Shown: piece after piece, positions 10,974 through 38,955 of the stretch
How the letters are laid out: each line of letters begins with the position of its first letter
Position numbering within the stretch: position 1 is the stretch's first letter
Assembly (NCBI RefSeq): GCF_963576615.1
Contig: NC_088715.1
Span: forward strand, 52,740,007-52,804,006
Origin: Watersipora subatra
Lineage: Eukaryota > Bryozoa > Gymnolaemata > Cheilostomatida > Watersiporidae
Direction of reading: 5' to 3'
DNA length: 64,000 nucleotides
Notes under the pieces: generated by a model
Told to the model about the DNA's origin: nothing
Database searches by the model: none
The model's input: only the letters and a program-made list of their open reading frames with translations
Position numbers and translations under genes: made by a program

Positions 10974-11862
10974 CACTGTAAAAACTGTCAGACTTAGTGC
11001 GTGTGAAAAGTGAGTGATTCAGTGCAGTGACTGCTTGAATAATGCATAATATTAGGCATTGGATGAATATTTTTCTGCAGTCCGAAAAACAATGCACTTT
11101 GTTAAAATATCCCCTTCTTTAAAACGCACTGTGATGAACTAAATATTGAATTAAATTCTCAGGCAATGCAATGAAATCGCATTCAGTGTGTATTTTGCCA
11201 TTATACCTATCAGTATATTACAATGCGCTTAATGCTTAAACATTGCACTTTGTATATAAAGCTAATGCGTATGATGCGTTTGTGATCCGCTTAACAGCGC
11301 CGAGTGAATTAAATTAAGATAAACACAATGAGTGCATAGAGAGCATTGATAATTATGCATTAACTGTTTATAATTTTTATGCGGTGAGGGTGTAGGCTTC
11401 AGGCATTTATGCACTGCTTGTGTTAACTAAATAAAAACTTGATAAGCGATTAAAATTTTGAACAGTAATGCGTCAGCTGCATTAAACTTGCAACACAGCC
11501 ATTGCATTATTAGCAAAAATTTATGCACTGGTTGAATTGTTTACAAAAAAAACTCACTACATGCTTAATAGTTGACAAATAAATAAGATACAGTAAACAG
11601 TCAGCGCATTAAATTTCCACATTTATGCAATGGTTGTGTGATTTTGTACTTGAACTCAATAGGCGTGTATAGTTGAGAATATTAATGCATTGACTAGTTT
11701 AAGTATATATCAAGGTAGTCAGCGTCGTTTGTTTTGAAAGCCTATGAGCTGAATGTATTATTTACACTAAACCTCAACAGATTACCAGATGTTCAAATTC
11801 TGACCTGTCAATGTAATAGCTCATCTTAATTTACAATGCGATCAATTCATTAGGTCTGCACT
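10974..11862. repeat. Left subterminal repeat array of the CACTA element
   Basis: About twenty TGCA/GCAT words (AATGCACT, ATTGCACTTTG, AATGCGTCAG and similar) recur at irregular spacings of about 25-50 bases, with GCGTGTGAAAA near the very end. The same vocabulary appears at the right end. These are probable binding sites for an element-encoded protein, by analogy with plant En/Spm. Confidence 0.65.
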
Positions 11863-12639
11863 AGCTCAGGCCCTAATCACTTTATCTGAATTGGAGTTGT
11901 CCCAATTTGAAATGGTCACGTGACCATTTCGAGTGGGGACAATTCTATTGCGGAATCCTACCTTTTTTCAATTGCTGTTTGCTGGTAATATCTGATGAGC
12001 ATAGGTCTACATCTAAAGGATTACCAAACTTTGTTTTCATAATTACCGGTTTTCAACATGTCAAAGGAAGACCTTGACAAGCAGACACCAAGTGGTTAAA
12101 CTTTTAATATGGCCATCCTCTGATCTACAGGTCTGTGTTATTATAGTAAATGATTATATCTCGTGTGTATAATCTCAATGGCTTTAAGAGTTGGTCATTT
12201 TGCGAGATGGTCAAGGGCAGGCAACATTTCCAGCTGAATTACATCCAACATGGAGTAGTTTGAGACATGGAAAACAACACCAATATTTGAGGTGAACTCT
12301 GCATATGTGATTCCGTTTGCGACAAACCAAACCCTTGAAATTTTTTCCGCAAAAGAAAATTAACTATTTCCCAAAAAAAAAACCAAGGTATATTCAACTT
12401 TACAAAATAAGACTTGACAATTTCTACAGAAAAGTGATACGGTTGATAGGGATGTGGAGAGCGGTAGACATAATTGGAATATTCCAATTGAATTGGAAGT
12501 TAATAAAACGGGTTAGTAATTCCTCCAACTATTATTAGTTTTTTAAGGCGACAAAGTTTTTCATTTCCCTAACTCATAAAGCGAACCGATTGGTTGAATA
12601 ATAAAACCGATCATGTAATGTTTTGGGGGAGTTGCCCCC

Positions 12640-13430
12640 TCTCGCCTTTCGAGTTTAACTTCCTCCATCGGGAGTTGTTAACCCTTTGGCAGGTGAGCTC
12701 TGTTATCACCACCTACTAGTATTACTACCATTACCCTGTGTATACTTCTTCACTATGAAAATCAATTTGGTATTTTCACCATAGCTCCACCATTCTTGAA
12801 AAACTTTTATTTAATTCAAAGATGTGAGCTGTGAGCGAACTACTATAAATAAATGCCCCGACTCACACGCCCCTCACAAGTGTTTTATGTCTGCTACGTT
12901 AAACAGTTGGTAATTATAAATTGTCACTGCTATTATTATTTTAGAGCCGCAAATTTTCTGCAACCTAAATATAGTATGCAACTATTGATAATTGAACAAA
13001 AATATTGTTCTCCTGCTTTGGCGGAATTGTCCTCTCTCGCTTTTGATACTAGTTTAGCGACAGCATGTTTAATATCATTGGCCACTGCAAACAAAGTTGG
13101 CCAACTCCCAAGCAGCTTAGCTTGCCCATCACCATCTGTTAGTATATTATTATTACCATTAACACCCTGCGTATACCCAAACTATTCCCACTTCGCAGAG
13201 AATAGTGCATTTTACCCTAACTTCAACTTTCTCGCAAAAAATTATCTTCTTCTATTCAATAATGTGAATTGCAAGAAAATTACATACTCATAGTTTTCAA
13301 TAGACCGCAAAACAGTAAACCAGCTGGTAATAAGTGTTATAGCATTTTAGAGTTGGAAATTTCACACCACTAACATAGAGTGCAGCTATTGATAATTGGT
13401 GGAATTGTCCTCTCTCGCTATTGCTACTAA
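12640..13430. repeat. Diverged tandem duplication, unit about 380 bp
   Basis: GGAATTGTCCTCTCTCGC at 13021 recurs at 13403, with a weaker version (GTTGCCCCCTCTCGCC) at 12631. The order of inner landmarks (ATTACCATTA.CACCCTG.GTATAC, then CAACTATTGATAATTG) is repeated too. The plus-strand frame at 12853-13293 runs through this and has no recognisable domain. Confidence 0.65.
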
Positions 13431-13831
13431 TTTAGCTAGTGTGGATCGTTCATTTTAACTTAATTTCACAATTAAAATCTCATTTTTCATTTTATCGACA
13501 ATGGCTCGGAAAATATGCAATTGTGATAATCGACAAGTCGGCAGTGCAGTGCAGACCAGGACCATTGTGACTTCACCAGCCCATGTATCTTTTTTTCTTT
13601 GAAGCATCGTAAACCCGCTTCAATTCTTTTGAAACAATGTGAACAACAGGCATACTGCTCTGCATTAAGATGTCCTAAGATTTTTGAGCCTATCTACTAG
13701 TAGAACTAATGTGAAAGTGCAATTATCTCTCGATTAGTGGCGATCATTAGTGGACCTACGTATTCTGCAAAAAGGATGGCTTGCTCCAAAGGTTTGCCAT
13801 CTACAGAACTAAGTTTTATAGTTGTGCTCAC

Positions 13832-13921
13832 CTGAGAGTGAAATTTTTTTGGCGTATGAGGAGTTCTTCTTGTAGTCTATTTCTGACATCAACTTGACAC
13901 AACCGAGAACGCGTCTACTGT
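13832..13921 (-). CDS. Exon-like segment of an unrecognised gene in the transposon cargo
   Basis: Flanked by a pyrimidine-rich acceptor (TTTTCAG) and a GTGAGC donor. The 90-base open interval (phase 1 in, phase 1 out) reads SRRVLGCVKLMSEIDYKK and onward. Family not recognised. It could be part of the same gene as the segments at 14851-16952, but the phase did not chain cleanly with the nearest one. Confidence 0.4.
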
Positions 13922-14850
13922 CTGAAAATACAAATAATATGTTGATTTAATTGACTTATTTAGCCTATGCTACACTTTCACCACACAAGTCTTATTAACC
14001 ATCAAACTGCCGGATACATTCTATAAAGTGGGTTAATTCAAAGTGCAGAGTAGATGTAGATATTATATTATAAATACTGCCCTGCTACCGCTACCGACAT
14101 GCCAAGATAACTTCTGGTATATCTCTATTTCCTTGTTATGATTACCATGCTGATCCGAACACACGGGGTTGGGAATCCAAGCGGTGACCTGTCATATCAT
14201 GAACAAAATTTCCATAACTGGCGTCAATTGATATATTTACGGGCAACGAAAATGCGGCCTCCTTGCACAGAATTGGAGGTTCAATATTATCTACCCTTGT
14301 AAAAAGGGGTAAGATACAAGAATATCTAATAAAAATTAAGTTTTTTTTAAAGTTTTTAATCACAACTAGGATATTGCAATGGGAGTGGTCTGCCTAACCA
14401 AAGATATTGTTATTTTTAATTTTAAAATATGTCATGAAAATTCATACCGGTATGCCATTTATTGCATTTATCACTAGCAAAGTAAATGTATAAGAATTAC
14501 CAACAATAATGACCCATGCTCATGATTGGATTGAAGAACATTGACTGCTGTGGAAATGTTTTTTTTTAATTTAAAAATATATATTTGATGTGAGTAAAGA
14601 TAGCTCAGAGTTTTCATGCAACTCTCATTGAATCGTGAGCGTCATTGAGTACTATGATATTACAATAACGATTGATAAGCCTCAAAGTCAAATCCTAATA
14701 TAAAGCTAAAATAAAGCTATGTCTTCCCAAACCACAGTTAGAAGCTCAAGTCGTTTCAGTTACATAAAAATATCAATGTAGGCCTAAAGATAATAAATCT
14801 ATGTTCTTGAGTTAAAAAAAATAGGATTATCTAAGCGCTTACTGTCGGCA

Positions 14851-14918
14851 TCACAGGTTTTCTGTTGGTATCCTTGATCCTCCACTTAGCTTATCTGCCA
14901 CACATTTCCTGGCGAAAT
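14851..14918 (-). CDS. Exon-like segment ending in a stop codon, unrecognised
   Basis: The acceptor is TTTTTTCAG, and the open segment DFARKCVADKLSGG and onward ends at TGA 14853-14851. Its incoming phase matches the outgoing phase of the segment at 15913-16043, so it could be that gene's terminal exon. A GTAAGC donor lies a few bases beyond the stop, which leaves its role open. Confidence 0.35.
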
Positions 14919-15912
14919 CTGAAAAAATATCACGTCTCATACAATGTGGCTTTAACTAGTATACATATAGTACAGGGTTAATCTCATCGGAACTTCAAGT
15001 GAACACTGTGTTTTTTCATGTTCTTCAGAAAGATAGAAAATTTTTAGTCATTATTCGTTTGGAAACAGCAAATAATTCTAAACGGTTGTCGCAGAGCATC
15101 TTAGAGAGGGTTATTATATTTGTGCAGTTTGGCGTTGGATTGGATGTTGACAGCTTTTTGCCACTAAGGCTAAATTTATTGCATAGCTTTCTCAACAAAA
15201 TATTTAAATTATAAAAATCATAAAATTATAATAATAAAGCGGTGCTGTTCACAAACTAAGAGACGCAATGGTATATAGCTTTATCCTTAGTGAAATCAAC
15301 CTGCATAGAAATTTGTATAATACTGAAAGTATCAAGGAGTTGTCAGCACAACCACATTACTTTCTAGCTTGTAAGATCCAAATGGAGCCAAAACTGACGG
15401 TGGCAAGTCAGTCTGGTGAAAACACATTACATATTGCAGCCTTATATCTCTGATGTTGGCATGCGATATTTTTTCTGATACTGTCAGCACCGCAACATTC
15501 CCATATTCTCAATGGCAATCAGCTGTCGGCTTACCTACCCAAACTGCAACACTGTTGGTAATGCAAGTCATTTGGAATTAATTAGCCTGGACAAAAATAT
15601 CGAGTGGTAAATTTAGGAGGTACTCCTAACTGCTTGCTCCAAAAATAGCTAGGTAACTCTGTTTAGAGGGATATAATATGGTTTATAATATAAATAATTA
15701 ATAACAGAATTGCTATCCCATGAAGAATAACCGGTTAACTGCAACGGGCGTGTAGGCTAACACAAAAGGTTTGTCAAAGTTTTTTGGATCCATCATACCT
15801 CCTAGCCTACACTGTGTTGCTTATTCAATAGTACAGACACCTATAATCTTACTGGCCCTGACTATTGGTGTAAAACAAGCTAATACGTTTGTTAAGAAGG
15901 GACAAGTCATAC

Positions 15913-16043
15913 CGTTACAAATAGACCCTTTCGCTCTTCGGCTCCATTGACTCTTTAGGGTTCTTGTAAAACTCTGTAGGCTTACGATGTCATAGACAGG
16001 TGTTATTTGCCCATTGATCATAAATTTGCTCTCTGATGGTTCA
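15913..16043 (-). CDS. Exon-like segment, unrecognised cargo gene
   Basis: The TTTTTCAG acceptor and GTATGA donor bound 131 open bases (phase 2 in, phase 1 out) reading EPSESKFMINGQITPVYD, then LQSFTRTLKSQWSRR. It is coding-like in composition, with no recognised domain. The outgoing phase joins to 14918-14851. Confidence 0.45.
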
Positions 16044-16451
16044 CTGAAAAAGTTATAAAACCTGTATTTTTGATGTCTCAAGATTATTTAGCCTTTATTA
16101 CAGCCGCAGGGGAAAGCAGTTCAGATTAGATTTTTAAAATTACTTAATATTTGGATTTTGGAGTATTACTTTTTAGAAAAATGTTATTTGAATTTCGGTT
16201 ATATACAGCAGTTGCAGAGATTATTGAAGGCCATTAAATAAAAAGAAAAAATAAGGTGTTTTGGTATAATAAAATAAATTTTAGTGAGACACGATTAGCC
16301 AAAAGTGGAGGGTTTTAATGGTCGCCAAGTCTGATTTTTAATTTTCTCTTTGGAATGACGATGTTTAAAGAACACTCCTTCTGACATCAAACTGGCTTTT
16401 ACCGATGAAAATTTTAATGCTTCTTTGACAATCAACCACTTTCAAAGTGAG

Positions 16452-16952
16452 TTATTCGCGTCGTCGGGTATTCGAGAACTTCTGAGATATAACTTTATTT
16501 GACGCCAAGGTTGGCTTTATGAACGAAGCTTTCTTAATGGATTTTATATAATGAAATGGTTTGGTGCCGTTTTGCTGAATAACAGTGGTCTGAGGAGATT
16601 TCAACTCATAGATCCCACCAAGGCTTATATTAACCAACTCATAATCCTTTTATGGCCAAGCTAGGGTAACAATAGATATAATAACAGTTGAGGGAAATCA
16701 TAAACTCACAAATGGCTGGGAAACTGTGGGAAACGCACATTGAATGAATGACCTTACAGTGTCAGTAAAGATATTGTCAACAAAATAGGAATGAGCGCCA
16801 ACCATAGGTGCCAAGTAACCGTGATTTGAAAAAGTGAGGTTTTTAGCTTTTTTGGATTTAAACGACTGAGGTTCATACCCTACACCCTGTAAAACTTTGA
16901 ATGTGTGTCTAAGGACTTCTCTCATGCCCTCTTTCTGATAGTGTATGACACT
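16452..16952 (-). CDS. Two exon-like segments of an unrecognised cargo gene, ending in a stop
   Basis: Segment 16952-16710 (AACAG acceptor, GTGAGT donor, 81 codons, phase 0/0) reads SVIHYQKEGMREVLRHTFK, then YLAPMVGAHSYFVDNIF. Segment 16646-16452 (weaker acceptor) continues in phase as DYELVNISLGGIYELKSPQT and ends at TAA. Neither resembles a family I know. A diverged copy of this stretch lies at 17949-18500, where the frames are broken. The codon composition and clean splice sites favour real or recently real exons. Chance cannot be excluded. Confidence 0.4.
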
Positions 16953-17221
16953 CTGTTAATATTATTGAATAAAAAAATAGCTAATCGCGTGTGGAGAGGA
17001 AAATTTACCCAAAATATCAGAAATATCCTTCTCAAAAAGGGAGACATGGCAGCTATGGCGCCAACCAAAGTCCAAAACTGAGTAACCAAAGTTGGGATAG
17101 ATTATAATCATTAAAACTGCTCCCAACACTTTTCCCGTAATATAAAAAAGCTGCTATGTGGATTACCAATTGGCATAATTTAGAATTAGATGCATGATTA
17201 GGACTATTAATTAGTGGTTTA

Positions 17222-17388
17222 ATCCCGCCTCATAATGAGCCTCATATTCTCTTCGATGCAAGATTGTAGAGCAGCTTCCTTGATGAGTCTACGGAGATTC
17301 GTTGAGGAAACGAGCAAAGTGATGGGTGCGACAAATTTCATTTTTCGCTTTTCATTCCTCACCATCCACTTTGAGGAAAATTCTAAAG
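17222..17388 (-). CDS. Possible terminal exon, unrecognised
   Basis: After a TTACTTTAG acceptor, the minus strand reads FSSKWMVRNEKRKMKF, then TLLVSSTNLRRLIKEAAL, ending RRD and a TAA stop. It lies upstream of the other cargo exon-like segments on the same strand. It is basic and probably helical, with no family assigned. Confidence 0.3.
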
Positions 17389-18215
17389 TAATATTTTGTC
17401 GAAACAATTATTAATAGCAAAAAGCTGTTTACATAATGCCCCACTTGATTATTGGGAAATATTTTTGTATTTTTCACGGTAGCCTTCATAAAAGCACTGA
17501 GACTGGAGTAGGTCTATTAGACTTTGAGCTTTCGGAGAGCCATTTGTGGTTATCAGTAAAATGTGTCTACCAATTGGTAAATTGACTATAATTACATGCG
17601 TAATCAGACCTATTAAAAATAAAATTCAAGTAAAGCATAAATAGGCTACTTAGTTTTTGTGTAACCTGTGAAATTTAAACCTTTGCTCGAACTTCAAGGT
17701 GCTGGGTTAGCCTCTCAAACAAAACGGTGCAGCATTGGCATGCACAACTGATGTCACAACTTTCAAAGTTATTTTATTCAATTAAAAATCCTATTCATAA
17801 GTCTTCATTCAAAGGATTATTTTAATTGTCCTAAGCTAAGGTAGAGCTCTATACCTCCATCTCTTCTATTATACTAGCCATATTGAGTGGCAACAAAATT
17901 TAGAGTGAGTAATAGGATTATCATTATGGCTAACCTGGCACCACATTTAAAGTGAGTTATTTATGAGTTATTCGCGTTGTCGGGTATTCGAGAACTTCTG
18001 AGACATAACTTTATTTGAAGCCAAGGTTGGAGTTATTGACGAAGCTTTCTTAAAGGCGAGAGACATGGAAAGTATTTCGGCACGGTTTTGCTGAATAAAT
18101 GGTCCACAAAACACTTAGCCTGTATTAACCAACTAATAATTTGTTTATGGCCTAGCTAGGTTAACAATAGATATAATAATAACAGTTGAGAGAAATTATA
18201 AACTCTCCAATGGCT

Positions 18216-18337
18216 GTAGTTTAAGTGACATAAACTGTTGGCAGTTGGCTGTAGTGGCATTCCATTGGGTGGGTGGTTGATAATGGAATGCCACTACCAC
18301 CAAGTGCCAACAGTTTATGTCACTTAAAGTTAAACTA
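18216..18337. mobile_element. Hairpin MITE 1 with 8-bp target duplication
   Basis: A palindrome of 122 bases with the AAGTGACATAAACTGTTGGC arm and its complement. It is flanked by CAATGGCT (18208-18215) and CAATGACT (18338-18345), an 8-bp duplication with one mismatch. The empty site is visible in the duplicate near 16711. Confidence 0.85.
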
Positions 18338-18345
18338 CAATGACT

Positions 18346-18388
18346 TAGCCTGGGTAGGCTCTTCTGTTGAAGAGCCTACCCAGGCTAA
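18346..18388. mobile_element. Hairpin MITE 2, nested, 43 bp
   Basis: A short near-perfect hairpin with arms TAGCCTGGGTAGGCTCTTC and complement. It is flanked by perfect 8-bp copies of CAATGACT at 18338-18345 and 18389-18396. It inserted into the right flank of hairpin 1. Confidence 0.85.
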
Positions 18389-18499
18389 CAATGACTGGGA
18401 AACATATTGAATAGGATTTTGAGTTAGCTAAAAAGCCGCTAGTCTGTAAGGCATTGCTTTGCTGGAAAAGATATTTTCAACCAAATAGTAGTTGATGAA

Positions 18500-20499
18500 T
18501 GTCATCCAAAAACGACTTAAATTTAAATAATCAAGATTGGAATACATCAGTGATAAATATAATTATAACCAGTGTTAGAAACAGATTTACTTTTTTGGGG
18601 AAACACTGCGAGGCGGAGGGGTACACGTCCAACACTGTGGGAAAATCCACTTCGACACGCGTACAAAAAAGCTCAAATTACAATTTTTACAAGAATTTTT
18701 CAGCAAAATAATGAACTGTACATGTATATCAATAAAAATAGATAGAAAACATCACTGTATGATCCAGATCTCTTTGTCGTAAAATGTTTTGTGAAAGATC
18801 TAATAGCAACAAAAAGGAACAACACAAATAACTGATTACAAATCAGGGCCAGGGAATGCACCTATGCCGAGTTTATCTCCTTTGAAAATATCTCGGGGTA
18901 TTGATGTTGCTGTGTATTGCTGTGTATTGCCTCATGCCTAACCCTGCTGATTAAACTATTAACCACTCAGTCATAACCCTTTCTAAAGGTATATATAAAA
19001 GACCATAAAATTATGTTAAACCAAAACAGTTCAATCTTGGTCATAGAATTTCCTTCACTCACAGCAGCCGCTGCTGACATTTTCCATTGCGGACATTTTC
19101 TACATAGCTTTGACACAATCGCAATATAGCTAGACCATCGGCTATTTCTTAGATACCTTTTAGGCCATGGGTCATAATACAAAAAGTATCATTCAAATAT
19201 GGACAAGAAGTCGCCCATGAAAATAGGAATCTAAAGCAGGCTGTGCTGTGAATCAACCATCAGGTCGTAATCGACTACTCTATATGATGGGTTGTTATTA
19301 GCACAGCAGTACGGATGATGGAAAAGTCACACAGCTAGGGTGTTAGTAGGATAGGCTATAGTATGAAGCAAACTTGATTTGTTGACAGTGAATACAATAA
19401 GTTGCACAGAAGGGGTGGGTGGGGGGGGGGAGAAAAATAAAAATGACTCATTTCGAATCGCTTGGTTGTGAAGTGAGAGTGTGTGATTTCACAATGGGCC
19501 AGAATGTTCACTAAGTCGGCATAAATACTTGTGACATGGGTATCCCACAGAAAGGGGTCTTACCCATTATCTACGAAATGACCATGCAAATTTTAGCCAC
19601 ACCACAGCCCAATTTAAAGAACCTTTCTTAAAATCTTCAATCCTCTGCTAATATAAAACAACTGCGGCCCGCTACAGCAGAGTAAGTGTACCGAATTTGA
19701 TTCAGGATGTTTAGAAAAAAAGAGCGCCAAAAGTTTTGTGAACTCAATAGCAAGCTGAAAAGTAAAGGGCAAAATGTATTTTAGAGGGCATTAGGCAACA
19801 TTGGCTAAGACCTAAGGGAGAAATATGCCTTGCCCTTGCCTTGCCTACTAAACAAAGAGGGTTCCTTTGTTCTCCCACAATGGGAATTTTGGAACTTATT
19901 GTGTTCATTGTTAGAAATTCAAATACCCTGTCCTGTTATGAGGTGCACACACTACATTCAGCCTACTTGCACTGCCCAATCATGTACCCTAGATAGTTAC
20001 TTTTAAAGATGCCTCAAGATTGTTAAAACAGGGTCTGAAAATATGTAGTGTTTGAGCTGGTCTTTTGTTAGATCTTTTGTGGTCAGTATTTTTCGCTTCA
20101 ACATGTTTCCTCAAGCATGGTGAGAGCGTCTTTCTTTGACAATAAGTATCAGAATGGGGTAGGCATACAAGTTTTCCGTACGTTGAACTGAACCTTTCAA
20201 CATAGAAACATGAAAATCTCTGGGAAGTAAAGTGAATGACAAGGTCAATATAATATATTTCAAGCTGAACCAAAACCTAGACAATACTCTCATGCCCACT
20301 AGGTAAAATAAAAATATAAAGCTACGACATCTGGCTTTAAAACAGTAGGCCTCCCTACCAGAATCGACGGAAATTAATTACAAAAGATTTTTATAACACT
20401 AATCAAAATGTATAAAAACTTAAAAGCATTCAACAAGACAATTTACCACAGCTCAAAGTATTATCCGTCTCTACAGGAAAAGGGGCGCTCAAAACCGGA
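18500..20499. other. Stretch without a supported gene
   Basis: AT-rich sequence downstream of the transposase. It includes a poly-G run at 19419-19430 and minus-strand frames at 18967-19182 and 19989-20273 that show no domain and no phase-compatible splice sites. Confidence 0.5.
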
Positions 20500-23400
20500 T
20501 CATACGGTATCAACAAATTCAGGATCAGAAAAATACCTTGGCTGAATATAACAAGCGGGTTGAAATGGCGGCAGTTTATATACATATAATGGATGGTGGT
20601 GGGGTAGACTAGATACCAGCCGCCAAACAAAATTTCCGGTACATTGCAATTTGTGAGCGAAGAGCCGAGCTTCAAACCATTCTGCTTTATATTCTTCTAG
20701 TAGAAAGGCTGTAATATAGTCATTGTTAGCCACTATTTGCAGAATTACTCCATAGGTATCGCTAGCTAGACGAAAGGCGTCCCCAATGCTATATCTAAAA
20801 CCTACAAAGCAAGACAGTGTAGAATAATCTTTGTGTTTTGAAGATTTGTTTATAAATAAGTGATTGAATAACAATAACAGTTCAATAGAGCTTACTTACA
20901 GCGTATCCCATTACTTACCAGATATTGTGATGGTGTTGCAGCATTGTGTGCAATCTCCCAAACTCTCCTGGATGTGCTCAGGTGGTTCAGGACTGTCTTC
21001 AGCGGTGCCTATCAAGAAAAAATTATCTTACTCAAAGCCTGTTCGATAAGTTAGAGCAGAAATTAGCCATAGCATTTAACAACAGCTATCTGTCTCAGGT
21101 GACAAAAACCAAGTGGATGATTCCTCAGAACACGTTACTGTAAAGCAGCGATTTCAAAACTCGATGCATGAGAACTATCAGGAAAGCCTATGACTACTGC
21201 ACATGGTGACCGAAAAGCCAGTACTCCGATAGAGGAGTACTCTGATAACAAAATGACTCCAAAGTCTTCAGACAATACCTCAAAAGAGTACCCCAATTTC
21301 TAGAAATGTTCAGTAAACTAACATATTTCCATGCACGCACCAACTCCGTTACTCGAACACTATTGAGATATCAGCCACTGCAATACTTACGTGCGCCCTT
21401 GGTTTTGGCATTGTTGTGATGCAATACGCCATGCACATTGGCATCTGCCCAATCATGGCAAAACTCGAGTTGGTTTCTGTTACTTAGACTTAGCGGCACA
21501 TTCTTAAAGTTTCTCATGCGTAATGATTTGAAGAACGCATGTTTAGCCTCCATCCTTAAGCACCAGGTTCCTCTTGGAAGACCAAATCTGGTAAACAGTT
21601 ACATAAAGTTACATGAAGTTTAAAGTTTTTATGTGACAACTGATAATTACATAGTAAAATAATGCTTGAGATTGAGACATACTTTTAAAAAAAACATCAC
21701 TGTAAAGTGGGATGCTGAACCAACCGACATACCGCAGCCAGCGGACCGCTTGCCATTAAATTGGAATGACATGAATCATGCTATATATATTTATACTGGC
21801 CTGATAAAATTATAGAGTTTTTGCCTGAGAACTCACTTCACTATGTAGTAGGGGATGTGTACCAAGTAATGCATCTTGGGAGTAATGGTGTGAGCTCCAT
21901 ATACGGTCACCCAGGTTTCTAGGTATAATTTTATTAGCGTTGCGGCGGTTGTAATCTGGTCTTTGTTGAACGAATATGCCAACAGAACGGAGGTAATTTC
22001 AACCATCATCAACAGCAGTCTGTATTCTGGAATCTCTTCAATATTGTGGCCAGCCAGTATTAAAGGTAGAAGAAAGCCCAAACAGATAGTTTGAGTTGCT
22101 GAAAAAAAAGTTATAGATTAGATCTACAAAAGCATAAGTTGCGTGAAAAGGAAAAATATATCAAAATTTGAAAAACTATTTTACCTTATTTCTTACACGA
22201 AGCAACAAACATAATAGGACTTTAAAAAAATGCTAAAATATTGTAGTGGTTTAGATTGGGAAAGTCGCTCCACAAATCACCAGTTTAGAATTTAGATCAT
22301 TAGCATTCCTCATTGACTGTCGAAATCAAACAAAAACGTATTCAACTGCAGTAGGCTGAATACGAACCAGATTGACCAATTTTTCCGGTGTCTAGTCCAT
22401 TGAAGCAAGATCTTTCCAAGCTACTGGGTGCATTTTTCTTGTCGTCTCCTCTGTATGGAAAGTTTTTGATGTGTTCATTCAATGACGATATAGAAATTAT
22501 TCGGTTTTCCAGTAGCCTAGATACGAACCCCTTTATGGCATAAGGAAGAGTTCCTTCGCACACAATATGCATAATGTCAACAGGAATGCATTGGCAAACA
22601 TCAAATCCATCGATCTTATCTAATATGGATAGCGAGTTGATTCCGTATCGCTTTGAGTATTCTACACGCTGCCGAGCAGGCATCTCTGGACCGAGAAGGA
22701 GACAGTGGCGACGGTGACTCTCTATGTCTCTCAGTCTAAACTCCGTGTGGTTAAACTGTAGCATGTTTAAAAGCAATAGAAAGCAATACAAAGTTTCGCA
22801 TCACACTGACGAAAAGAACTAGAAATTCAGAAACTTAGCAACCACACACTAGTAGCGACGTGCGACAGCATTAACATAATCCCTGATTCAGCGCACGGAA
22901 TAGCTTCTATTCAAGATAAAAGTCTTATGATAAGTGCATAACTAAAAAAGTTAACACAACAAGCACACTTCTGCAATAAACTGTATACCATAACACACAA
23001 ACCTGTTGGATAATCTCTTGTGAGCTACCATAACACGTCCGACATTTCATGGCTGCCCCTCCCACTCCTTCTTTAAACCCTGCTACCATATTGGCTGCTG
23101 GAGTGTCGCCAATAAAAAAAAGCAAAGATCCTTTATAGATGTCCTTTCCGTCCCGATTCACAACTTCAATACCATCCTGAATAAAAGACATAGAATCTTT
23201 ACTGTTTTATCCTTTTCAAACAATGGAATAAAATACATTTTCGATCATAGACTTTTCATAAAGAAACTCTTTCACTAGCCAGAAAAGAGGTCAAATAACT
23301 TGAAGTTTAGATTCATTGCCAGGCTCTAGCTCCGGTTTTCAAAGCTAACCTATTACTATAAGAATATTATGATTACCTTCTTGAGTACATTAATTTCCTC

Positions 23401-28444: not shown

Positions 28445-28564
28445 CTAAGTCGGAATTCGGTACAAGATAGGGCAGTTTGAAGTGAAAGTCCACTGGGCCT
28501 CCACAAGATCCAGGATTCGGGTTCGCAGAAATATATTCAACAGCAGTATCGTCAACAACATGTC
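28445..28564 (-). CDS. Possible 5' exon of the transposase gene
   Basis: Open segment HVVDDTAVEYISANPNPG, then CGGPVDFHFKLPYLVPNSDL, after a TTTTAG acceptor. The most obvious exit is a GC donor (GGCAAG), but its phase would create a stop in the next exon. A weak GT at about 28414 would keep frame with ATG 28242. Coding-like composition supports a real exon; its connection is unresolved. Confidence 0.35.
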   Translation of the reverse strand, partial: DMLLTILLLNIFLRTRILDLVEAQWTFTSNCPILYRIPT

Positions 28565-28565
28565 C

Positions 28566-28902: not shown

Positions 28903-31900
28903 ATGGAACAATTCAAAACCCTTTTTGAAGAGATAGGCGATACAGCGGCATACGAAATATTACTTGGTGAGTATACGCTACATTTATAGTTTGACTTGAT
29001 CACTAAAATTCAACGAGATAATTTTTATTTTATATACTTTGGAAGTAGGCATCTACTAAAGTGCCCAATGTTGAACAAAGCGTAAAATATATTAAAATAG
29101 AATTCGTTTAAAACATTTTATTACTAGTAGTTTCATACCCAACGGGTAATCATCATCAGAATCAAAATCACAACTATCTAGGATTAGACAAATGAAAGGT
29201 GTAGGCCTAAGTTTCTGAATTGAAATCAAGACCTTGAAATCAACCTAAATTAAAAGGCTCTTCGCTTTATTAAGTCAAGTTTCAACTTTCTTTTAATTTA
29301 CAATCCCTTTTTATAGAAAACATGAAACAATAATATTTTTTACTTTTGTGAGAGAGGCCTAATCGCTACATAAAGTAGTATGTTTGAGAGCAGTCACCCG
29401 AACAGTAGAAGATCTAAAGCGTACCTATTTATATGCAATGAATGAATATTATTTATCATAATTAAATAGATAGCTATATGCATGCAGGGAGTTCTTGATG
29501 CAGGCCTATGCAACGCAACAGACATATTGATAGGAGCAAGGAGTTGTATGTATCCCACATACAACTCTTTAGTCTTTGATAGAAGTCATGAAGGAAATTT
29601 TGTTTGTAAGAACATTCAGAGGTTTTCAATTGAGAAAAGATTACTGCCGACACAATTCAAGCCTGGGTTATAGAGTAATTAAAATTTCTTGTTTAGGCCA
29701 TAGAGTAGTTAAAATTTCAAAGGTATAAAACACAATGCCTATGTAAGCCTACTAAACAGAGAATAGAAAGAAGGCCAAAGAAAGAAGTAATCTTTACAAT
29801 CACCACACTTCCAACATCATTCGTTTCAAATCTTGTGTTCTTACCCTTAAATACATTTGTGTAGCCAACTCCTTGGTGCAGCCAGCCAGCATTTGAATAA
29901 TTAATTTTTACACTATCTTGTTGACTACTAGTACTAGCCACAGCCACAGCCACCCACCCCACCATCCATTTGTGCCTGGGTGGCTGTGGTACTACTACTA
30001 GCCTAGAAAAGATTGAAATATAATTAAGACTTAGTAGCCTAGTAGTACTAGGCTGCTAAGTCGGAATTATATTTCAATATTTTCTTTCATTAACTTTTAC
30101 TCCAACTAAGGCAACTAAATTCTGACAGCTGTAATCACAAAAAAGTTGCACCTTCAGTTACTCATTAGTGTCACTTTATGGTTGTATGGTTGTATGGTTG
30201 TCAAGTTATACAAATAAATGAAATACTTGACTCACTGTATGAGCATAGATTTGTTACCAGATACGCTATTGGCTAAGAATATTCTAACGAGCTAATTGAA
30301 GCCACAATGAGTATTCAAAGGTTCTTCAACATTGGTGCCCAAATCAATGATTTAGAATTAAGTTGGAATGATTAGGTTGTCACTATTTTTTTGTAACTTT
30401 GAATTCAACTCTAACTCTGTGAGTCTGTGGGGGCTGCTGCTACTGCTCTCTCTAATTAAGGATATAAGTTAACTCACTAGGAATTATTTTCCTCCAACAA
30501 GACTGGTATGGTTTGATTTTTTTATGAATTCATTTTAGATAATGATATCCTTGATGAAGAAGTGATACCTGACTTGCAACCAGAGCAGCTTCAGCAGCTT
30601 GGTGTTGGGTGAGTTGTCTTTGTTTGGTCTGATAGACTACGCGATCATGGTATTCATGTCTATGTTATAACCTCCGCCAGTTGGTTGTTCAAATCACAGG
30701 CCGGCCAACGTGTTCGGTAGCGCTCGGGCGGTGGTGCTCGGGCGAGCACCACCGTCCGAGCGCTACCAAACACCTTGGCCGGCCTGTGGTTCAAATAGAA
30801 ATTAGGCCTACTTGCAACTCAGCTTCTTTTTGCCAAGGAGTTCTTATTGCCAAGGAGTACAAAAATACTGTCTAGGCGAAGAACAAAGATCAACTACATT
30901 ACCTCCCCAAATGGATTAGTTGATAGCTAGGGTTTGCAATTTGTTTTAGGCTTTAGCAATGTCAATCATTTTTGTTCGCCATTTTAACTTGTATGACAGG
31001 AAGAATTAAGAATTGGCTAAGAATTGCTTATGATTGCATTGCGTTACGTTTTTATGTGGATCCAAAAAGACATTCTGAAATGGCCAGTTTTGGATTTACA
31101 TTTACCTATGCTGTAAACTTTACTAGTAAGTATTACTATGGCATTATGTTAAGTATGTGAACTTTCCTTATAGCTCTCTGGGGAAATGTATGAAATACCT
31201 ACGAAGACTCAAAGAGCTTGTCAAAAGTGTTCAAAAGGTAAATTTTACGTTCTTCTTTTAGCAAAATTTAGCTTGATTATTGTTGAGTATAATAGTTTTA
31301 TGCATATCATTTATATCGGAGGCGCCTCTATTATTGGTCTTTGCATTTTCAGAATAACTTACCAAGTGCTGCCCCCTCTGTTGCGCTTACACTACCAACA
31401 CCTAATGAAACTGCTTCAACACTCGGCGCTGCGGTCGCATCACCACCTGCTTCCATGCCGGCCACACCTAGACCTGTGGTTACCACACCTAGACCTGTGG
31501 TTACCACACCTAGACCTGCGGTTTCAACACCTTCCTCTGCTGTTTCCGCTATTTCAGGATCACCTGCCGCCGAACCTATTGCTTCAGCCTCTGCCACTGC
31601 TGAGGCGACTGTTTCAACACCCTCTAGCTCTCCATTGTTTATGCGAGTGAGTAACAGCAATATACTGTAAATTATGTTGTTGTTGTTGCTGTTGTTAATA
31701 TTTATTGAGGTTAGCTAGAGAAAATAAATCCTGTCGACCTGTCTAAATTCGTTGGCTGTTCTTTGGCTGTCGATAATGTTGAATTGATTGCACAACTTAA
31801 ATTTGTAATGTAAATTTTTACGTACATTAGACCTGCTAAGTATGGTGCTGTTTGAATTGTTGAATCTTAGTAGGTTAGCCTTGATTGAAAGCGCTTGTAA

Positions 31901-34900
31901 TGGGCAACTCTTGGTAGTCACACTTTATCGTTCGAGCAGACACTATGCATTTTACACTGCAGTATTTTCTGTCTATGAGAAAAACTCCGCCTTAGGCAAT
32001 TAATTAAGTAATTTGCCTTAAAAGTTAATATACACTATGGCTTTTCCCTATAGTAAGTAAGAACTCAGTTTTATTGTTTTATAGGAGCTCAATGTACCTC
32101 AATTTACTGGACGAGAGACCAGGAAAATGGTTGTACAGGCGATTGGGGAAGCTAATTGGTCCCATAGTCACAGCAGACCCAACTACGATAGTGTGGTACT
32201 AAAAGTCCTGAGGCAATTTCCAGATAAGAGTGACATCTTCAAAGACGCTAGCTATACCGAAGATAAGGATTGCTACGTGAGTTTTTTTTATAATCGTGAA
32301 TAGGTCTACTTACTACCGGGCATGTAGCCTACTGTCCTGCAGATTCATTTAGCAATACTTGGCATTGGCGTGCAGCTTTCCACAATTTATTATACAGAAA
32401 CTTACATCATATCCGTTATCCATCAAGGGTTATTTCGTGTATGTAGAAATTTTCTAAGCATTTGACCCTCTCAGGGAGGGAGAGAGATACCTAATGCTTG
32501 TTAAATACCTGTCGGAGTTGTCTACTCTGTCATTTATTTTCATGCATTCACTATGAATGTTAATATGGGCTATTGAGTGATATTTTCATATTTATTATGA
32601 GAAGTGTAATAAGTGATCCAGAAAATGTAAGCCCTTCCGTTGATATTTATGCAACTGAAACTGAAATGATTGAGCTTCTAATTGTTGTTTGGGGAGGCAT
32701 AGCTTCATTTCAGCTTTATATTAGGAATGAAGGGTTAGCTTTATTTTTTTACTATCATAGTAAACGCTATGAGCCAGTGTAATCTAGCGTTGATTTGCAT
32801 AACCACCATTGCAAGAGTCCAAAGCTGGGTAAACTTTAAATTTGTTTCAAGATGATTGGAAAATGTTCTGTCTGATGGACTAGAACTGAGCAACTCTCTC
32901 TGGTTTTCATGCTAGCTAATCTATACACATATGATATTTTTATACTCCCTTTTTAGTTTTGTAATCATACTATTTTTTTGCGCATCTATAGTTTATCAGG
33001 ATCTACATTCTTTGCTTGTAGAAGGTTTTCAAAAGACAGTTATCTTGCAGCGTAAGAAACAAAAGAAGCTACTATGCGAAAAAACAAAAACTCGATCAAG
33101 AACCTGCTGCTTCGGTCACCGGGTTCGTATTTTACTTGTTAATTCTCCTCTTTATTGTTGACGTCATAAAAATAATTTAAAATTTACCGTTTGAGATGAA
33201 TAGTCAATCAGAATCGCAATTTATATTGACGTCTTAGGTTTTGATGATAAGCATTATAATATTGTATGTTTATGTATGTTATAAGCATTATAATATGTTT
33301 TTTATGTATGTTATGCTTTTGATCTTTGTTTGAAGTGAATCATTGTAATCTATTATCCGCACATCCCCCTCCCTTTGCAAGGACAAATAGACATCTCAAT
33401 GTTTCATAAGATTTCTACTCATATAACTCATAAAAATGCGACAAACACTTTGTCTTCTGTAGCCATAATTTTCATTTTTTAATTTCTTACAGGGATATAG
33501 TGGTGAGGGCAGAGGCACTAGTGGTTTCTCCGAGCAAGGAAAAGAGGAATTTGCGGGTTCAAAATCTTGACACAATTCCACAGGTAAGGTAGCATAGTTT
33601 ACTCAATAAGAGTATCAGGGGCTAGCGGTAGATAAAAATTTGTGATCCTCATTGTCTGCGTTGGAGTTACCCCCACTATAAAATAAGATCGAAGTAGCCG
33701 CTTATAGTGGGTGCAACTCCAACGCAGACAATGAGGATCACAAATTTGATCTAGGCTAGTGGTACTAATTTATAACCAACATCTTGTGTTGCTTTCAGTA
33801 GATCTCTTAGGTGTGTGCAGCTTGCTTTATTGTGTTTTTAAAATATATGAGGGAGTCTTGATTATGCAACAGCCTTTCGAGCGCCTTTTGTTTCATCCGC
33901 TAAATGTTTCAAGTAATTTTTGTTGTGGTATTACCATTCTTGTTATACATCATTGTTGCTAATGATCGGGCTCCACTTTGTCGCCGCCAAAATCGCTTCT
34001 AAATTAAAGATTTGCTTATATTTCTAATGGCAGCATTCACTGACAGTCGCGTTTCGAATAATATTATAATGAGGCATGGAGTGTCAGTGTCACGGCTTTT
34101 AGGGTTCCACTTCTTTGAAAAGGTGGACATTTTTCTAACAATCTATTATGTAACCAGTTATATACTCCCTGATGGCACGGCTAAACTTGATTATTGTTGA
34201 AATTTTTATGGTAACTTTTCACCCTTTATAGCAAGTTGAATAAAATTTGTAGTTTTCGTTGATGATGCCCTAACTTTAACCACAGTAAACTATAAGAACT
34301 CTATAATCAGTCTTCATATTGCAGAGTGCGGTAAAGGAGATGCTTCGTCCATCATTGTCTATTAGGAAAGAGGCTTTTAAGAACATGAAAGATGGTTGGA
34401 GTGGCATGGTTGTTGAGTGGCCAATTTATGGACAGGAGGCTTTTGTAAGTATTACTCTCCAAAATAACATGAACTTTCAAAATTTTGCCCATTCTCCCAG
34501 TATCCTATTTTGAGCCCAGGTCTCACGTAGTGTTTTAGTGGATTGATATTAAAAAGCTACAAGCGAAGTCTTTGCAATACAACCTGCACCGAATACCAAT
34601 TTGCATGAGCTGAAGATGGCTACCTACTTCCAAAGCACAATTTTAAATAAACTTGACTAGACTCGTCACTCTTTATAGTTTCTCAAAGAATAATGTCTTA
34701 GTCTTGGGATTAACTGAAACTTTAAATGTTATATATTATTGGAGACCGAGTTGAACTGAAATTCATTGCAAGGGGAAAATTCCAGTTAGTTTCTCTCTAT
34801 GGAGGGAATTTATAATATGTGCACAGTAATTTATAGTTTAAACGATGGATGACTTGCCGGATTATGGTCAATTTCGGCAGTTGCCTGTCCTATCTGGCCA

Positions 34901-37900
34901 CTGGATTAAACGATTGCCAAGTTTTTATTTAGCACTATTCTGGCGCAGCATTGAACGTAATCCTACCACTGAGCAGACTTACTGCCTATCTATTAGGAGT
35001 TTTCTTCTCCATAATCAGAGGATAACTTTATGGTCTTCTAAAAAATCTTCAGCACTCTACTCCCAAATATGTCTTTGGCATAGACTTTGAACTATGTTTT
35101 CACTGAAAATGTATGGCATACCTTCTCTAAGTCAGAATTCCTAGCCTGTTTTCTTAGTAATAAGCAATTTCTGAAAATTTATGAGCAAAAAGTTATGAAG
35201 TCTAGATTTGTTGGCTATTTTTTAAAAATAAATATGTTTGGGCCCAAAATCAAAGGAATAAATTTCAAGAAAGAGTAAGGTATTGTTTTACTATTATGTA
35301 TTCCACTCCAACTTGCCCATGTGCATAAACCATTATTGTTAGTATGTGTTTTCTATAAAATTGTAGTTTGGGCTTGTAACATATTCCTGCTGGTAGGACA
35401 GTGTTTAATCTAAGGTGGAATAGGGAGAGGGTTAGCCGGAAAACACGACAGCCTTGCCGTGTTTTCCGGCAAAGAGATAATCCTGCACCTCTAGCATTAT
35501 ACAGGCAAATTATGGCAAATCACAGTCAGGGATGTGATTCATAAGCTAAAAAGTTTATTTTAAGCTATTTTGTATTAGCTCCGAACGCTGGCTTACTGTA
35601 CGCTATTCATTGCCTTCACCATTTAAGTATACCTTAGGTGGTATTTTTATCTATCCACTTCAGTATATAAACACATTTATTTCATAATTTTATGATTGAA
35701 ATGCTGCCTCGGGCTTTTGCTCAAAGTACTTTGTCAACGACTTCCGTCAGCAAGCTAAAATGAATTTTGGAAATCACATGCCTGCTAGTTATCCATCGTT
35801 TAAACTACACATATAAGACAACTCACATTTCTAGCTTCGATTTCATTCATCTGACCCTATGCGTTTAGGTTTTTACATTGTAATTATTACTATCTAAGTA
35901 GGCTTCAGCATAATTGAATTTCTAAAAAAATTTCGGCGTTGTGGTCAGGTCAGATATGTGTTTCTGACTGGACATCTATCTGACCACAGCTTTTAAAAAT
36001 TCACCACCAAAGTTTTTTGATTATATAAATAATATTGTCAACTCGTATTAAGTTTGTTAAAGGTCTATATCGTTGAGGGCTTAGAATTACTTCATGTAAG
36101 AGCAGTAAAGTGGTTCATTGAGGGTCATAACTAGTTTTTATTTACGGGCAAGTCGACTGAATGTCGATATTTCTTGAATTCTATAGATTTGCTACAGGAA
36201 GAATATTGAAGATAAATGTTTGTACTTTATTTCTCGCTTGCTAAAATGTCTTCTTCTTTCAAATTAGCGTCGATATTTTGAAGTTGCTTATTTTTTTATT
36301 GCTTGTTAGCTTATACCTGAGCTTGAGCTCCTTCTGAATCGGGACTTGGATTTGGACGCGTTGGGAAAGCGAGCAGAGGATTTGTTCATGGCTGCATGTC
36401 CAAAAGAGACTAATCGTAAGTGTATTTATTATCTTCAAATTTACGTACTTTCTTTGCAGAACAATATGTTACTTTATGCGCTAGCAACGGCTCAATTATC
36501 AAAATAATATCAACCGCCAAAATGATATAAGTCGGAGTCGGGTGCCCATGATTTTAGTCAGTATTACTGGCTTTTTACCTCACGATAATAGTAATCTACG
36601 GAGTTTGTCTCACCCTATTTTCCATTCCAATGCTTTACATGTGCAGCAGCTTAAACAAGAACTAGTCTCTATTGTTGGAGGTCTTACCTGGTAGTGTGTA
36701 GTCAAAAAAAGTTTAAATATAACAAAAATACTTTGTTTGCAGCGAATGATTATGGATTTGAGAAACTGGTGATCGTGATTGGAAAGCGCCTTGGAGACAA
36801 AAAGATGCTGGCCGAAACACCCGAACACAAAGTGAGTGGATTTCTTAGTTCGGTAACTTATTAACGTCATACATTAGGCTGACTATTGGTTCGCAACTCC
36901 AACTTAGCGTGTTAGAGGTTATTAGGATGTTTATACAGGAATGTTGTTAACGTCATAAATTAGGCTGACTATTGGTTCGCAACTCCAACTCAGCGTGTTA
37001 GAGGTTATTAGGATGTTTCTATAGGAATGTTGTTAACGTCATACATTAGCCCGTCTATTGGTTCGCAACTCCAACTTAGCGTGTTAGAGGTTATTAGGAT
37101 GTTTCTATAGGAATGTTGTTAACGTCATACATTAGCCCGTCTATGGGTTCGCAACTCCAACTTAGCGTGTTAGAGGTTATTAGGATGTTTCTATAGGAAT
37201 GTTGTTAACGTCATACATTAGCCCGTCTATTGGTTCGCAACTCCAACTTAGCGTGTTAGAGGTTATTAGGATGTTTCTATAGGAATGTTGTTAACGTCAT
37301 ACATTAGCCCGTCTATGGGTTCGCAACTCCAACTCAGCGTGTTAGAGGTTATTAGGATGTTTCTATAGGAATGTTGTTGACGTCATACATTAGCCCGGCT
37401 ATGGGTTCGCAACTCCAACTCAGCGTGTTAGAGGTTATTAGGATGTTTCTATAGGCATGTTGTTGACGTCATAAATTGGCTGGACTGGTTTCGGCTCCAA
37501 TCTGACTTACTTTTTACTGTTTTAGGTAAGCCATTCTCTTCCCCACCTCAAATTTGGGAAACTCTGTGTGGATGGGGAAAAGTTAAGCGTTAGTGAGGAC
37601 CCTCTCGTCCTGCTAAAACTTCTGGCAGTATTTTACATTGGGGACATCGAGTTTGGCGACGCCAAGAAGTTTGGCCAGCTGCTGGAGTTTACCTTCTTGG
37701 GCTCCAGCACCGTGAGAAAGGGAAGCAAGTATTTGTCTGTCGACAAATTTATGGAAAAAATGAAGCGGGTGAGTACCTAATGACTCAGCTATGCTAGTTT
37801 TATATCTGTCGAAAAACTAAGTAGGATTCGAATGAATTTCTATGGTAGCAATTTATCATATAATTCATGAGAAGAGAACTCCAAAATGTAACTTTTGGCG

Positions 37901-38097
37901 CAAAAAACGATTTCAACCAGTTGTAAAATCATTGAAACTAAAATTTCCGAGAACACTCATATCCTAAACTCATTGGTCGAGCTTTTTGCCGTCTTCCTAG
38001 TCTTATTTTTAACGTTTATTTTTCATGTTGGAATTATCATAAATCATAGAAACATTTTTTTTCTCTTTTGCAGGAAAGCCGAGCCGACGATGAGTAG
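28903..38097 (+). CDS. SAM-domain protein encoded by the CACTA element, 12 exons, 485 aa
   Basis: Exons: 28903-28966, 30539-30608, 31174-31237, 31353-31646, 32085-32276, 33022-33122, 33493-33583, 34325-34444, 36310-36415, 36743-36831, 37526-37768, 38074-38097. All introns are GT-AG, phases join, and the total is 1458 nt ending in TAG. Residues 1-66 form a SAM domain (FKTLFEEIG, VIPDLQPEQLQQLGV, GSLGKCMKYLRRLKELVK). Residues 67-164 are a Pro/Thr/Ala/Ser-rich linker with three TPRPVVT-like units. The remaining 320 residues are a conserved-looking body: FTGRETRKMVVQAIGEANW, a basic RNKRSYYAKKQK patch, GWSGMVVEWPIYG, and a C-terminal block with LKLLAVFYIGDIEFGD. SAM domains mediate self-association. 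By analogy with the second protein of plant En/Spm, I infer an accessory, possibly end-binding, role. It diverges from the transposase and ends about 860 bp from the right terminus. Confidence 0.85.
30006..30084. mobile_element. Hairpin insertion in intron 1 of the SAM gene
   Basis: GAAAAGATTGAAATATAATT pairs with its complement across about 79 bases, around a CTTAGTAGCCTAGTAGTACT centre. A second inverted pair (CTAGTACTAGCCACAGCCAC near 29930 and GTGGCTGTGGTACTACTACT near 29980) lies just upstream. Confidence 0.6.
30695..30788. mobile_element. GC-rich hairpin MITE with perfect 8-bp target duplication
   Basis: A 94-bp near-perfect palindrome beginning CACAGGCCGGCC and ending GGCCGGCCTGTG. 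It is flanked on both sides by GTTCAAAT (30687-30694 and 30789-30796). The 8-bp duplication suggests hAT-type mobilisation. It sits in intron 2 of the SAM gene. Confidence 0.88.
33636..33747. mobile_element. Hairpin MITE in intron 7 of the SAM gene
   Basis: AAATTTGTGATCCTCATTGT and the following 25 bases are repeated in inverted orientation after a loop of about 20 bases. The arms are nearly perfect, which suggests a recent insertion. Confidence 0.75.
34836..35805. mobile_element. TA-flanked MITE, about 970 bp, in intron 8 of the SAM gene
   Basis: The ends are GTTTAAACGATGGATGAC and, inverted, GTTATCCATCGTTTAAAC, each next to TA, which suggests Tc1/mariner-type insertion. Internal plus-strand frames at 34845-35090 and 35087-35278 show no transposase motif. 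A small inner hairpin (GCCGGAAAACACG.CGTGTTTTCCGGC) lies at 35434-35471. Confidence 0.6.
36863..37490. repeat. 86-bp minisatellite, seven units plus a partial
   Basis: AACGTCATA (later GACGTCATA) recurs at 36863, 36949, 37035, 37121, 37207, 37293, 37379 and 37465, an exact 86-base period. Units are nearly identical. The array fills most of intron 10 of the SAM gene and ends about 35 bases before the next acceptor. Confidence 0.95.
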
Positions 38098-38356
38098 GCG
38101 AAGAAAAGCAAGTGCCGGCAAAGCCTGGAACGCTATAAGTCTAAAACATAACAACAAAATTCATAGAACACAATTCACACGAAATAGTAACCTTTCCAAT
38201 CCAGTATGCCAAAGTGACACCACTTTTAGAGCGAATTATTTACGTGATTTGGGGTTTGGGCTTACTCAATGGATTTTATGGAATCGTGCTCTCTTTTATA
38301 TTATTGTAGATAGTTTTTTTTAATTATTATTCTAAATCGATCTTGATCAAACAGAT

Positions 38357-38479
38357 GCTGTGTGTTTTTCGAGTTATTTAGTGCTTTTATTAAATGGTGT
38401 GTGTGTTTTTCGAGTTATTTAGTGCTTTTATTAAATGCTGTGTGTGTTTTTCGAGTTATTTAGTGCTTTTATTAAATGT
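38357..38479. repeat. Triple 41-bp tandem repeat in the SAM gene 3' UTR
   Basis: TTTTTCGAGTTATTTAGTGC recurs three times at a 41-base period, just before an AATAAA signal at 38484-38489. Confidence 0.85.
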
Positions 38480-38483
38480 TAAT

Positions 38484-38489
38484 AATAAA
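38484..38489 (+). terminator. Polyadenylation signal of the SAM gene
   Basis: Canonical AATAAA lies about 390 bases after the TAG stop and before the subterminal repeats begin. No competing signal was noted nearer the stop. Confidence 0.5.
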
Positions 38490-38539
38490 TTATATATACT
38501 CGCTGTTTAAAAATATCCTTGGCTGAAAAAAACGCAGAG

Positions 38540-38955
38540 CTGTTTGTAAAGTGATTAAACTTGTAAACACTTGCTGCGTTCAAATTTGACCCTAAAATAT
38601 AATGCGCCAAGCGTGTAAAACCAGGTTGCAATGCTAAATGCACTCAGCGTGTGAAAATCGTCTTCGTATAGAAAACTCAGTCAATGTTTAAAAACTGCAA
38701 TTTTTAAACGCTAAGTGCGTACATATTTTGGTTTTATGATTAATGCACAGTGTGAATAGAAATTGCCTTGAAAAATGACCATCAGCAGTGCGTTAATTTT
38801 TAGTTGCACATCGCATAAAACGATGAATAGAAGTGTGTTTTTATTGAATGAATAGCGCATGGACATTGCATAATTTTCGAGTGTGTAGTTTTTCAGGTGC
38901 ATTGAAAAATGACCATCTGAGGTGATTGAATACTGCATAGATTTTTTTTACAGTG
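38540..38955. repeat. Right subterminal repeat array of the CACTA element
   Basis: TGCA/GCAT words (AATGCACTCAG, TTAATGCACAG, GACATTGCATAA, GGTGCATTG) and AGCGTGTGAAAA recur, as at the left end. GAAAAATGACCATC appears twice (38770 and 38904). The array ends in TTTTTTTTACAGTG at 38955. Confidence 0.65.

Follow-up and report, generated by a model that had tools for sequence, protein, structure and literature searches.

A 64,000-bp stretch of the genome of the bryozoan Watersipora subatra (contig NC_088715.1, positions 52,740,007 to 52,804,006 of the forward strand; in the following referred to as the window) contains a 28-kb segment that is bounded by short inverted repeats and that harbors two predicted genes in a head-to-head (divergent) arrangement. 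Gene 1 encodes a putative transposase, while gene 2 encodes a protein that probably begins with a SAM domain; each is divided into 12 predicted exons (Table 1). We conclude with high confidence that the segment is a complete and probably autonomous DNA transposon of the cut-and-paste type, belonging to the EnSpm/CACTA-Mirage-Chapaev-Transib (CMCT) clade, and that it has spread very recently through the genome. It is a new member of the CACTA clade, unusually large and very young.

The element starts with CACTGTAAAAA and finishes with its inverse, i.e., the exact inverted match between the ends is 11 bp, and the termini read CACTG...CAGTG, which are CA..TG ends as in the CMCT clade. Inverted ends with TA on both sides had been proposed in a first-pass annotation, made from the DNA letters only, and both were found where it had placed them. 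In the 784 Mb of genome searched, the 11-mer gave 1,391 matches (699 + 692), compared to 1,755 (772 + 983) for a reversed control. Because this frequency is that of the genome background, the evidence was drawn from longer ends, i.e., the first 827 bp and the last 956 bp of the element. The left end was found at 34 places, in each case matched from position 1 to 827 with 99-100% identity (34 of 34 candidates scored), and the right end was located 31 times (all 31 candidates scored), 27 of these matches being complete at 100%. The other four right ends are gapped or less identical (C3:61.5, 96%; C47, 92%; C4:50.5, in two pieces; C7:53.2, in two pieces of 88 and 100%). Further copies with the same ends, which the annotation had recommended to look for, are thus present. 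Pairing by position and strand defined 29 elements with both ends, of lengths from 11,584 to 53,021 bp and with a sum of 698,299 bp. Four copies of 27,975-27,984 bp have complete inner regions (the window copy, C9:44.9, C7:6.7 and C5:25.0), where the left arm of C9:44.9 was deduced to be complete from the length of this copy. In a fifth, near-full copy (C4:50.5, 27,800 bp), 173 bp are missing close to the right end. Of 311 candidates found for the transposase region, 20 were scored, and nine of these contain it in full.

Both flanks could be read for 17 of the 29 pairs, and in 15 of these the two flanking base pairs are identical (12 TA, one TG, one AA and one CA). The TA dinucleotide is also the target of Mirage elements. 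Empty sites were sought by joining the flanks with one copy of the 2-bp target (150 bp per site; 40 of 4,458 candidates scored), and uninterrupted paralogues were obtained for at least five of the 17 sites, including that of the window. The numbers of full-length matches were 26 for the window, four for C9:51.2, one for C9:44.9, eight for C9:5.3 and one for C2:57.1, and one empty site each showed identities of 144/150, 149/150, 149/150, 142/150 and 144/151, respectively. The first four alignments are free of gaps, while that of C2:57.1 has four gap letters, none of them within 12 bp of the junction; the C9:5.3 paralogue differs by one base beside the target. The 26 empty matches of the window site indicate that this copy inserted into a dispersed repeat. 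Equal flanks together with empty sites define a true target-site duplication (TSD) of 2 bp with a strong preference for TA. The expectation of an empty site with a single TA was therefore borne out as to the single 2-bp target, while TA itself is not obligatory. No empty site was found inside the window's own host duplication, where the homology ends short of the insertion point.

These data also bear on two other explanations of the locus. Host genes, i.e., a domesticated transposase and a SAM gene, could by chance lie between CACTG motifs, as both genes are intron-rich and open and the 11-mer end alone occurs at background frequency. However, near-identical ends at 34 (left) and 31 (right) places, along with TSDs of 2 bp and the empty sites, reveal multiple insertions with target duplications, which refute host domestication; we assign this explanation a negligible probability. 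The copies could also have multiplied chiefly by segmental duplication rather than transposition, and a few of them are indeed found close together on one contig. At C6:44560600-44590400 (C6:44.56-44.58) two right ends on the same strand are separated by 13.6 kb, one of them with only 6.6 kb of element, which is a rearranged or nested copy, and the C8:21.65 and C8:21.94 copies are both 12,790 bp long. Yet 2-bp TSDs are present and the flanks that were read differ between copies, including the right sides of C8:21.65 and C8:21.94, such that multiplication by segmental duplication is highly improbable.

The copies are nearly identical to each other. In pairwise comparisons, the left ends diverge on average by 0.057% over 2.3 kb (maximum 0.22%; 20 of 34 ends) and the right ends by 0.062% over 0.9 kb (maximum 0.28%; 29 of 31 ends), and over 18.1 kb the window copy differs from C7:53.2 by 16 mismatches and four gaps. 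A search with a 128-aa transposase exon, in which all 20 candidates were scored, located 18 identical matches and a single partial one. An open frame of 476 aa that one genome search had given for most copies (152 for the window copy) was disregarded, since neither an ORF scan of one such copy nor the exon search, with 152 for the 18 full matches, reproduced it. This near-identity implies a very recent spread. Neither diverged relics of the ends (34/34 left and 31/31 right candidates scored) nor diverged relatives of the 128-aa exon at E up to 1 (20/20 candidates) were found, in a search whose first pass can miss matches. The lack of visible relics suggests that the family arrived recently or grew from one surviving copy, and arrival may have been by horizontal transfer. 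An old, vertically inherited family that expanded from a single survivor, with no recent arrival, would fit comparisons made within one genome, but the missing relics of the ends and the exon speak against it. We regard this history as a serious possibility, though one that we do not favor.

Several copies carry the same internal rearrangements. Four elements (C7:22.9, C5:15.9, C4:62.7 and C6:51.2) have a common block order in window coordinates (20400-26112, then 27151-27389, then from 26106); the third block extends to 27107 in one pair of elements and to 26960 in the other pair. C8:18.9 has the same first junction. C7:53.2 and C47 have in common a loss of 288 bp (31958-32245), replaced by 17 other bases, which removes part of a gene-2 exon. 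Where read, the flanks differ among copies with common junctions, and the defective copies were therefore dispersed. The family was mobile in the recent past, more than one copy retains open frames, and deletion derivatives have been dispersed; the element may still be moving at present. The earlier reading of the unbroken frames as a sign of recent activity or selection agrees, as to recent mobility, with the near-identical copies, TSDs and empty sites.

The predicted proteins were assembled using splice scores from untrained consensus values, and the models were made with knowledge of the lengths of 779 and 485 residues given in the first-pass annotation, i.e., they reproduce these unbroken frames but not blindly. 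The gene 1 frame is also open in the C7:53.2 copy, where two residues differ, and that of gene 2 in the C6:44.58 copy, where one residue differs. At the two junctions that were varied, the chosen sites were the best-scoring open choices. An unconstrained automatic model differs at 25717-25636, 24108, 22906-22850, 22685 and 30785-30700; under its loosest setting, the end of gene 1 differs too. Its exon 25717-25636 was rejected as spurious by judgement, and 30785-30700 was exchanged for an extended exon at 31174-31237, which continues a SAM-like helix and preserves the frame. The stretch between the two predicted start codons is probably a shared promoter region. A scan for bacterial-type promoters gave five sites there, compared to 2.7 in shuffles; being inapplicable to a eukaryote, it was not used.

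Table 1. Features of the transposon, in window coordinates
Feature	Position	Strand	Basis
TA target duplication, left copy	10972..10973		flank comparison, empty site
Whole transposon, 27,982 bp	10974..38955		inverted ends, 2-bp TSD, genomic copies of both ends, empty sites
Left terminal inverted repeat, 11 bp, CACTGTAAAAA	10974..10984	+	sequence comparison of both ends
Left subterminal region, AATGC(A/G) repeats	10974..11873		AATGC/GCATT counts 12 + 6 in first two 500-bp bins
Left arm, 8.6 kb	11801..20399		complete in 17 of 18 candidates scored (57 found)
Gene 1, putative transposase, 779 aa, 12 predicted exons	20500..28242	-	splice model; open in C7:53.2 copy; D-D-C2C-H3H-E motifs
Gene 1, predicted exons 1-6	28242-28112, 27924-27794, 27666-27398, 24166-24002, 23682-23643, 23567-23377	-	
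Gene 1, predicted exons 7-12	23176-23003, 22755-22368, 22098-21837, 21587-21391, 21008-20919, 20801-20500	-	
Head-to-head intergenic stretch, 660 bp	28243..28902		position between two predicted start codons
Gene 2, probable SAM-domain protein, 485 aa, 12 predicted exons	28903..38097	+	splice model; open in C6:44.58 copy
Gene 2, predicted exons 1-6	28903-28966, 30539-30608, 31174-31237, 31353-31646, 32085-32276, 33022-33122	+	
Gene 2, predicted exons 7-12	33493-33583, 34325-34444, 36310-36415, 36743-36831, 37526-37768, 38074-38097	+	
Right subterminal region, AATGC repeats, weaker array	38256..38955		5 in last 500-bp bin
Right terminal inverted repeat, 11 bp	38945..38955	-	sequence comparison of both ends
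TA target duplication, right copy	38956..38957		flank comparison, empty site

The gene-1 protein displays the residues D228/229, D333, C354-x2-C357, H573-x3-H577 and E597, where the C354xxC357 and H573xxxH577 motifs are the sole ones of their kind between D333 and E597. This arrangement agrees with the D-D-C(2)C-H(3)H-E signature described for the CMCT clade (PMC12730594), and by this likeness the acidic residues would be catalytic and gene 1 would provide the catalytic function. The N-terminus has two C2H2-like fingers (Pfam zf-C2H2_4, E 2.5e-5, 25 bits at a cut-off of 27). A PDB search with the 779-aa protein gave two matches, which were regarded as chance (E 1.1 and 1.7), and a 453-aa piece of the transposase gave six pattern matches in IMG/VR, none of them a relative.

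Residues 1-66 of gene 2 gave 18 matches in a phmmer search of the PDB, the best eight being chains of Caskin-1, Shank2, STE11 and SLA1 (E 9.3e-4 to 0.1), which we take to be SAM domains; the other matches, from E 0.13, are unrelated proteins. With the whole 485 aa, the best E in the PDB was 0.039, and Pfam gave no SAM match. The gene thus probably begins with a SAM domain, and it may resemble SAMD3-like proteins of fish and cnidarians. The 12-exon gene of the first-pass annotation was recovered as an open model, with a PDB match to SAM chains and a Pfam SAM score below threshold. Among the papers listed by our literature searches, none was found with a SAM gene in a CACTA element, which does not imply its absence from print. 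An 86-bp tandem repeat (7.2 copies, 96% matches; 36861-37477) lies in the intron before the exon at 37526, and several shifted matches suggest that this array is longer in the C6:51.2 copy.

It may be asked if both genes are needed. The element could move with gene 2 as a passenger, e.g., captured from the host, gene 1 being enough, or it could be moved by another family. An 8.6-kb left arm with no convincing open reading frame (ORF) would be in line with this, as would the many internally deleted copies that were nevertheless dispersed; in this arm no unspliced ORF of at least 55 aa had a codon score above 14. However, no other such transposase was found, the conserved exon being present in family copies only (20/20 candidates), and by coordinates all 89 gene-2 matches listed are within family copies. 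Since 88 of 689 gene-2 candidates were scored, a distant host homologue is possible. Overall, we consider a passenger role of gene 2, or an external mover, unlikely.

The element was placed in the CMCT clade by its termini, its target duplications and its agreement with the published motif signature. The clade has TSDs of 2-5 bp, here 2 bp in 15/17 pairs, and C(2)C and H(3-4)H motifs between the second D and the last E, as seen in gene 1. Plant-type (TNP2) CACTA elements have terminal CACTA and a 3-bp TSD, which are replaced here by CACTG and 2 bp, while the repeated subterminal motif of that group has a counterpart in AATGC, a motif chosen post hoc. Within the terminal 1,600 bp, 24 occurrences of AATGC/GCATT were counted, mostly at the left end, compared to 3.7 expected from the interior, where 500-bp bins have 0-4 each. 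Markov resampling of the termini gave a mean of 9.6 and a maximum of 23 in 1,000. Enrichment in the subterminal arrays noted earlier is thereby confirmed, being stronger on the left.

A number of observations weigh against this assignment or parts of it. The terminal pentamer is CACTG, not CACTA. Pfam recognized no transposase profile in the 779-aa protein, Transposase_21/TNP2 included, and no transposase domain in ten single ORFs (one chance-level match, DUF4279, E 0.13); a genome search with the PF02992 profile returned nothing, as did its control. Five left ends are found without a right end and two right ends without a left. One of the 17 flank pairs is unequal (TA/CA), another (TA/AT) fits a 3-bp ATA instead, and the C2:57.1 empty paralogue reads CA in place of the TA that borders the element at either end. 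The best PDB domain of gene 2 alone (the Caskin-1 match of residues 1-66) has E 0.0094, and Pfam SAM_2 gave E 0.02 and 15.5 bits, i.e., below its cut-off of 20.5. Some splice sites are weak (acceptor 30539, -1.1; donor 34444, 0.2; donor 33122, 0.8), and all 24 exons are predictions. Because there is neither a Pfam TNP2 match nor a CACTA terminus with a 3-bp target, the element was not filed as TNP2-type. The "TNP2-type transposase" of the first-pass annotation therefore stands as an open 12-exon model, its family name being unsupported by the profile check proposed there, and "CACTA-type" holds in the sense of CMCT termini, TSD and motifs, not in that of plant elements.

Repbase merged Mirage and Chapaev into EnSpm (PMC4455052), and SmTRC1/TRC elements are animal and fungal members assigned to CACTA (PMC1636069). 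The latter have a 2-bp target duplication, spliced transcripts and empty paralogous sites, as found here with predicted exons, but SmTRC1 is 4.5 kb long with one ORF, as opposed to 28 kb and two genes, and the 9.2-kb Aedes TRC has ends that start with CCC rather than CACTG (PMC1636069). Spongebob, a TRC-type CACTA element reported to be horizontally transferred among invertebrates, is similar in its 2-bp target duplication, superfamily and proposed transfer, but differs in size (5.8 kb in Hydra), its CCC ends and its broken transposase (PMC4298943). Shared with ESTA, Mirage and other CMCT lineages are the CA..TG termini, a TSD in the range of 2-5 bp and, from the second D to the last E, the C(2)C and H(3-4)H motifs; ESTA also has TA targets, which are not obligatory here, whereas the ESTA families described are fungal and carry a TET/JBP gene (PMC12730594). 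With plant CACTA elements the present one has in common CACT ends, subterminal repeats, a transposase combined with a DNA-binding/ORF2 function (here a putative second function), deletion derivatives, large size and introns (up to eleven exons in maize), while those elements have CACTA ends, a 3-bp target site and a tnp2 domain (PMC2613891, PMC4158355) in place of CACTG, 2 bp, no Pfam TNP2 match and a probable SAM gene. Soybean Tgmt* is 20.5 kb (PMC2613891), and enlarged En/Spm families of 16-20 kb with 4-5 ORFs, compared to two predicted genes in 28 kb, are known from Chondrus crispus (as cited in PMC6431247). None larger was seen among these sizes, which do not amount to a systematic survey.

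Additional repeats were noted within the element and around it. A 41-bp tandem repeat (2.9 copies, 38359-38478) lies between gene 2 and the right end, and the left arm has a 93-bp direct repeat (91% identical; 16448-16540 and 17964-18056). Three intron stretches (25370-25528, 30692-30791 and 33636-33747) match themselves on the opposite strand (81-90%) and are possibly small nested elements. Outside the element, blocks in 598-3340 match 39940-42828 (81-86% identical) and blocks in 6226-9176 match 49921-51535; overall, identity is 75-86% in most blocks and reaches 96% in one of 55 bp. The element is thus flanked by duplicated host blocks, as had been noted, although the duplication is only partial. 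A repeat pair of ∼0.8 kb with internal palindromes (5362-6129 and 55865-56673; 87% in inverted, 74% in direct orientation) is found on both sides of the element. A 448-aa open frame on the minus strand (3809-5152) contains a zinc finger of the Spin-doc family (PF18658, with an E of 5.4e-8 that passes the cut-off) and presumably is a hAT-derived ZBED-type gene.

The terminal inverted repeats of plant CACTA elements are the site of action of a DDE transposase, with ORF2 supporting excision and transposition (PMC4158355), and a DNA-binding protein associates with subterminal motifs (PMC2613891). In the mechanism proposed here, the gene-1 protein, with its zinc-finger N-terminus and DDE-type core, would recognize the 11-bp ends and the subterminal AATGC repeats, cut the element out and integrate it at a target of 2 bp, for which TA is preferred. 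The gene-2 SAM protein may be an accessory or synapsis factor comparable to TNPA of plant CACTA elements; it would multimerize on subterminal DNA and join the ends. SAM domains often multimerize, and cut-and-paste transposons usually lose efficiency with length. The combined scenario, i.e., a very recent horizontal arrival, continued spreading and a SAM polymer of gene 2 that synapses ends 28 kb apart, is tentative and on balance doubtful. If true, SAM-polymer synapsis would explain continued cut-and-paste mobility at 28 kb. With its length of 28 kb, two 12-exon genes and end divergence of ∼0.06%, this two-gene system, in which the ends, the target and empty sites are defined, constitutes a natural experiment on what enables so large an element to move, and its entry into a genome may here be caught near its start.

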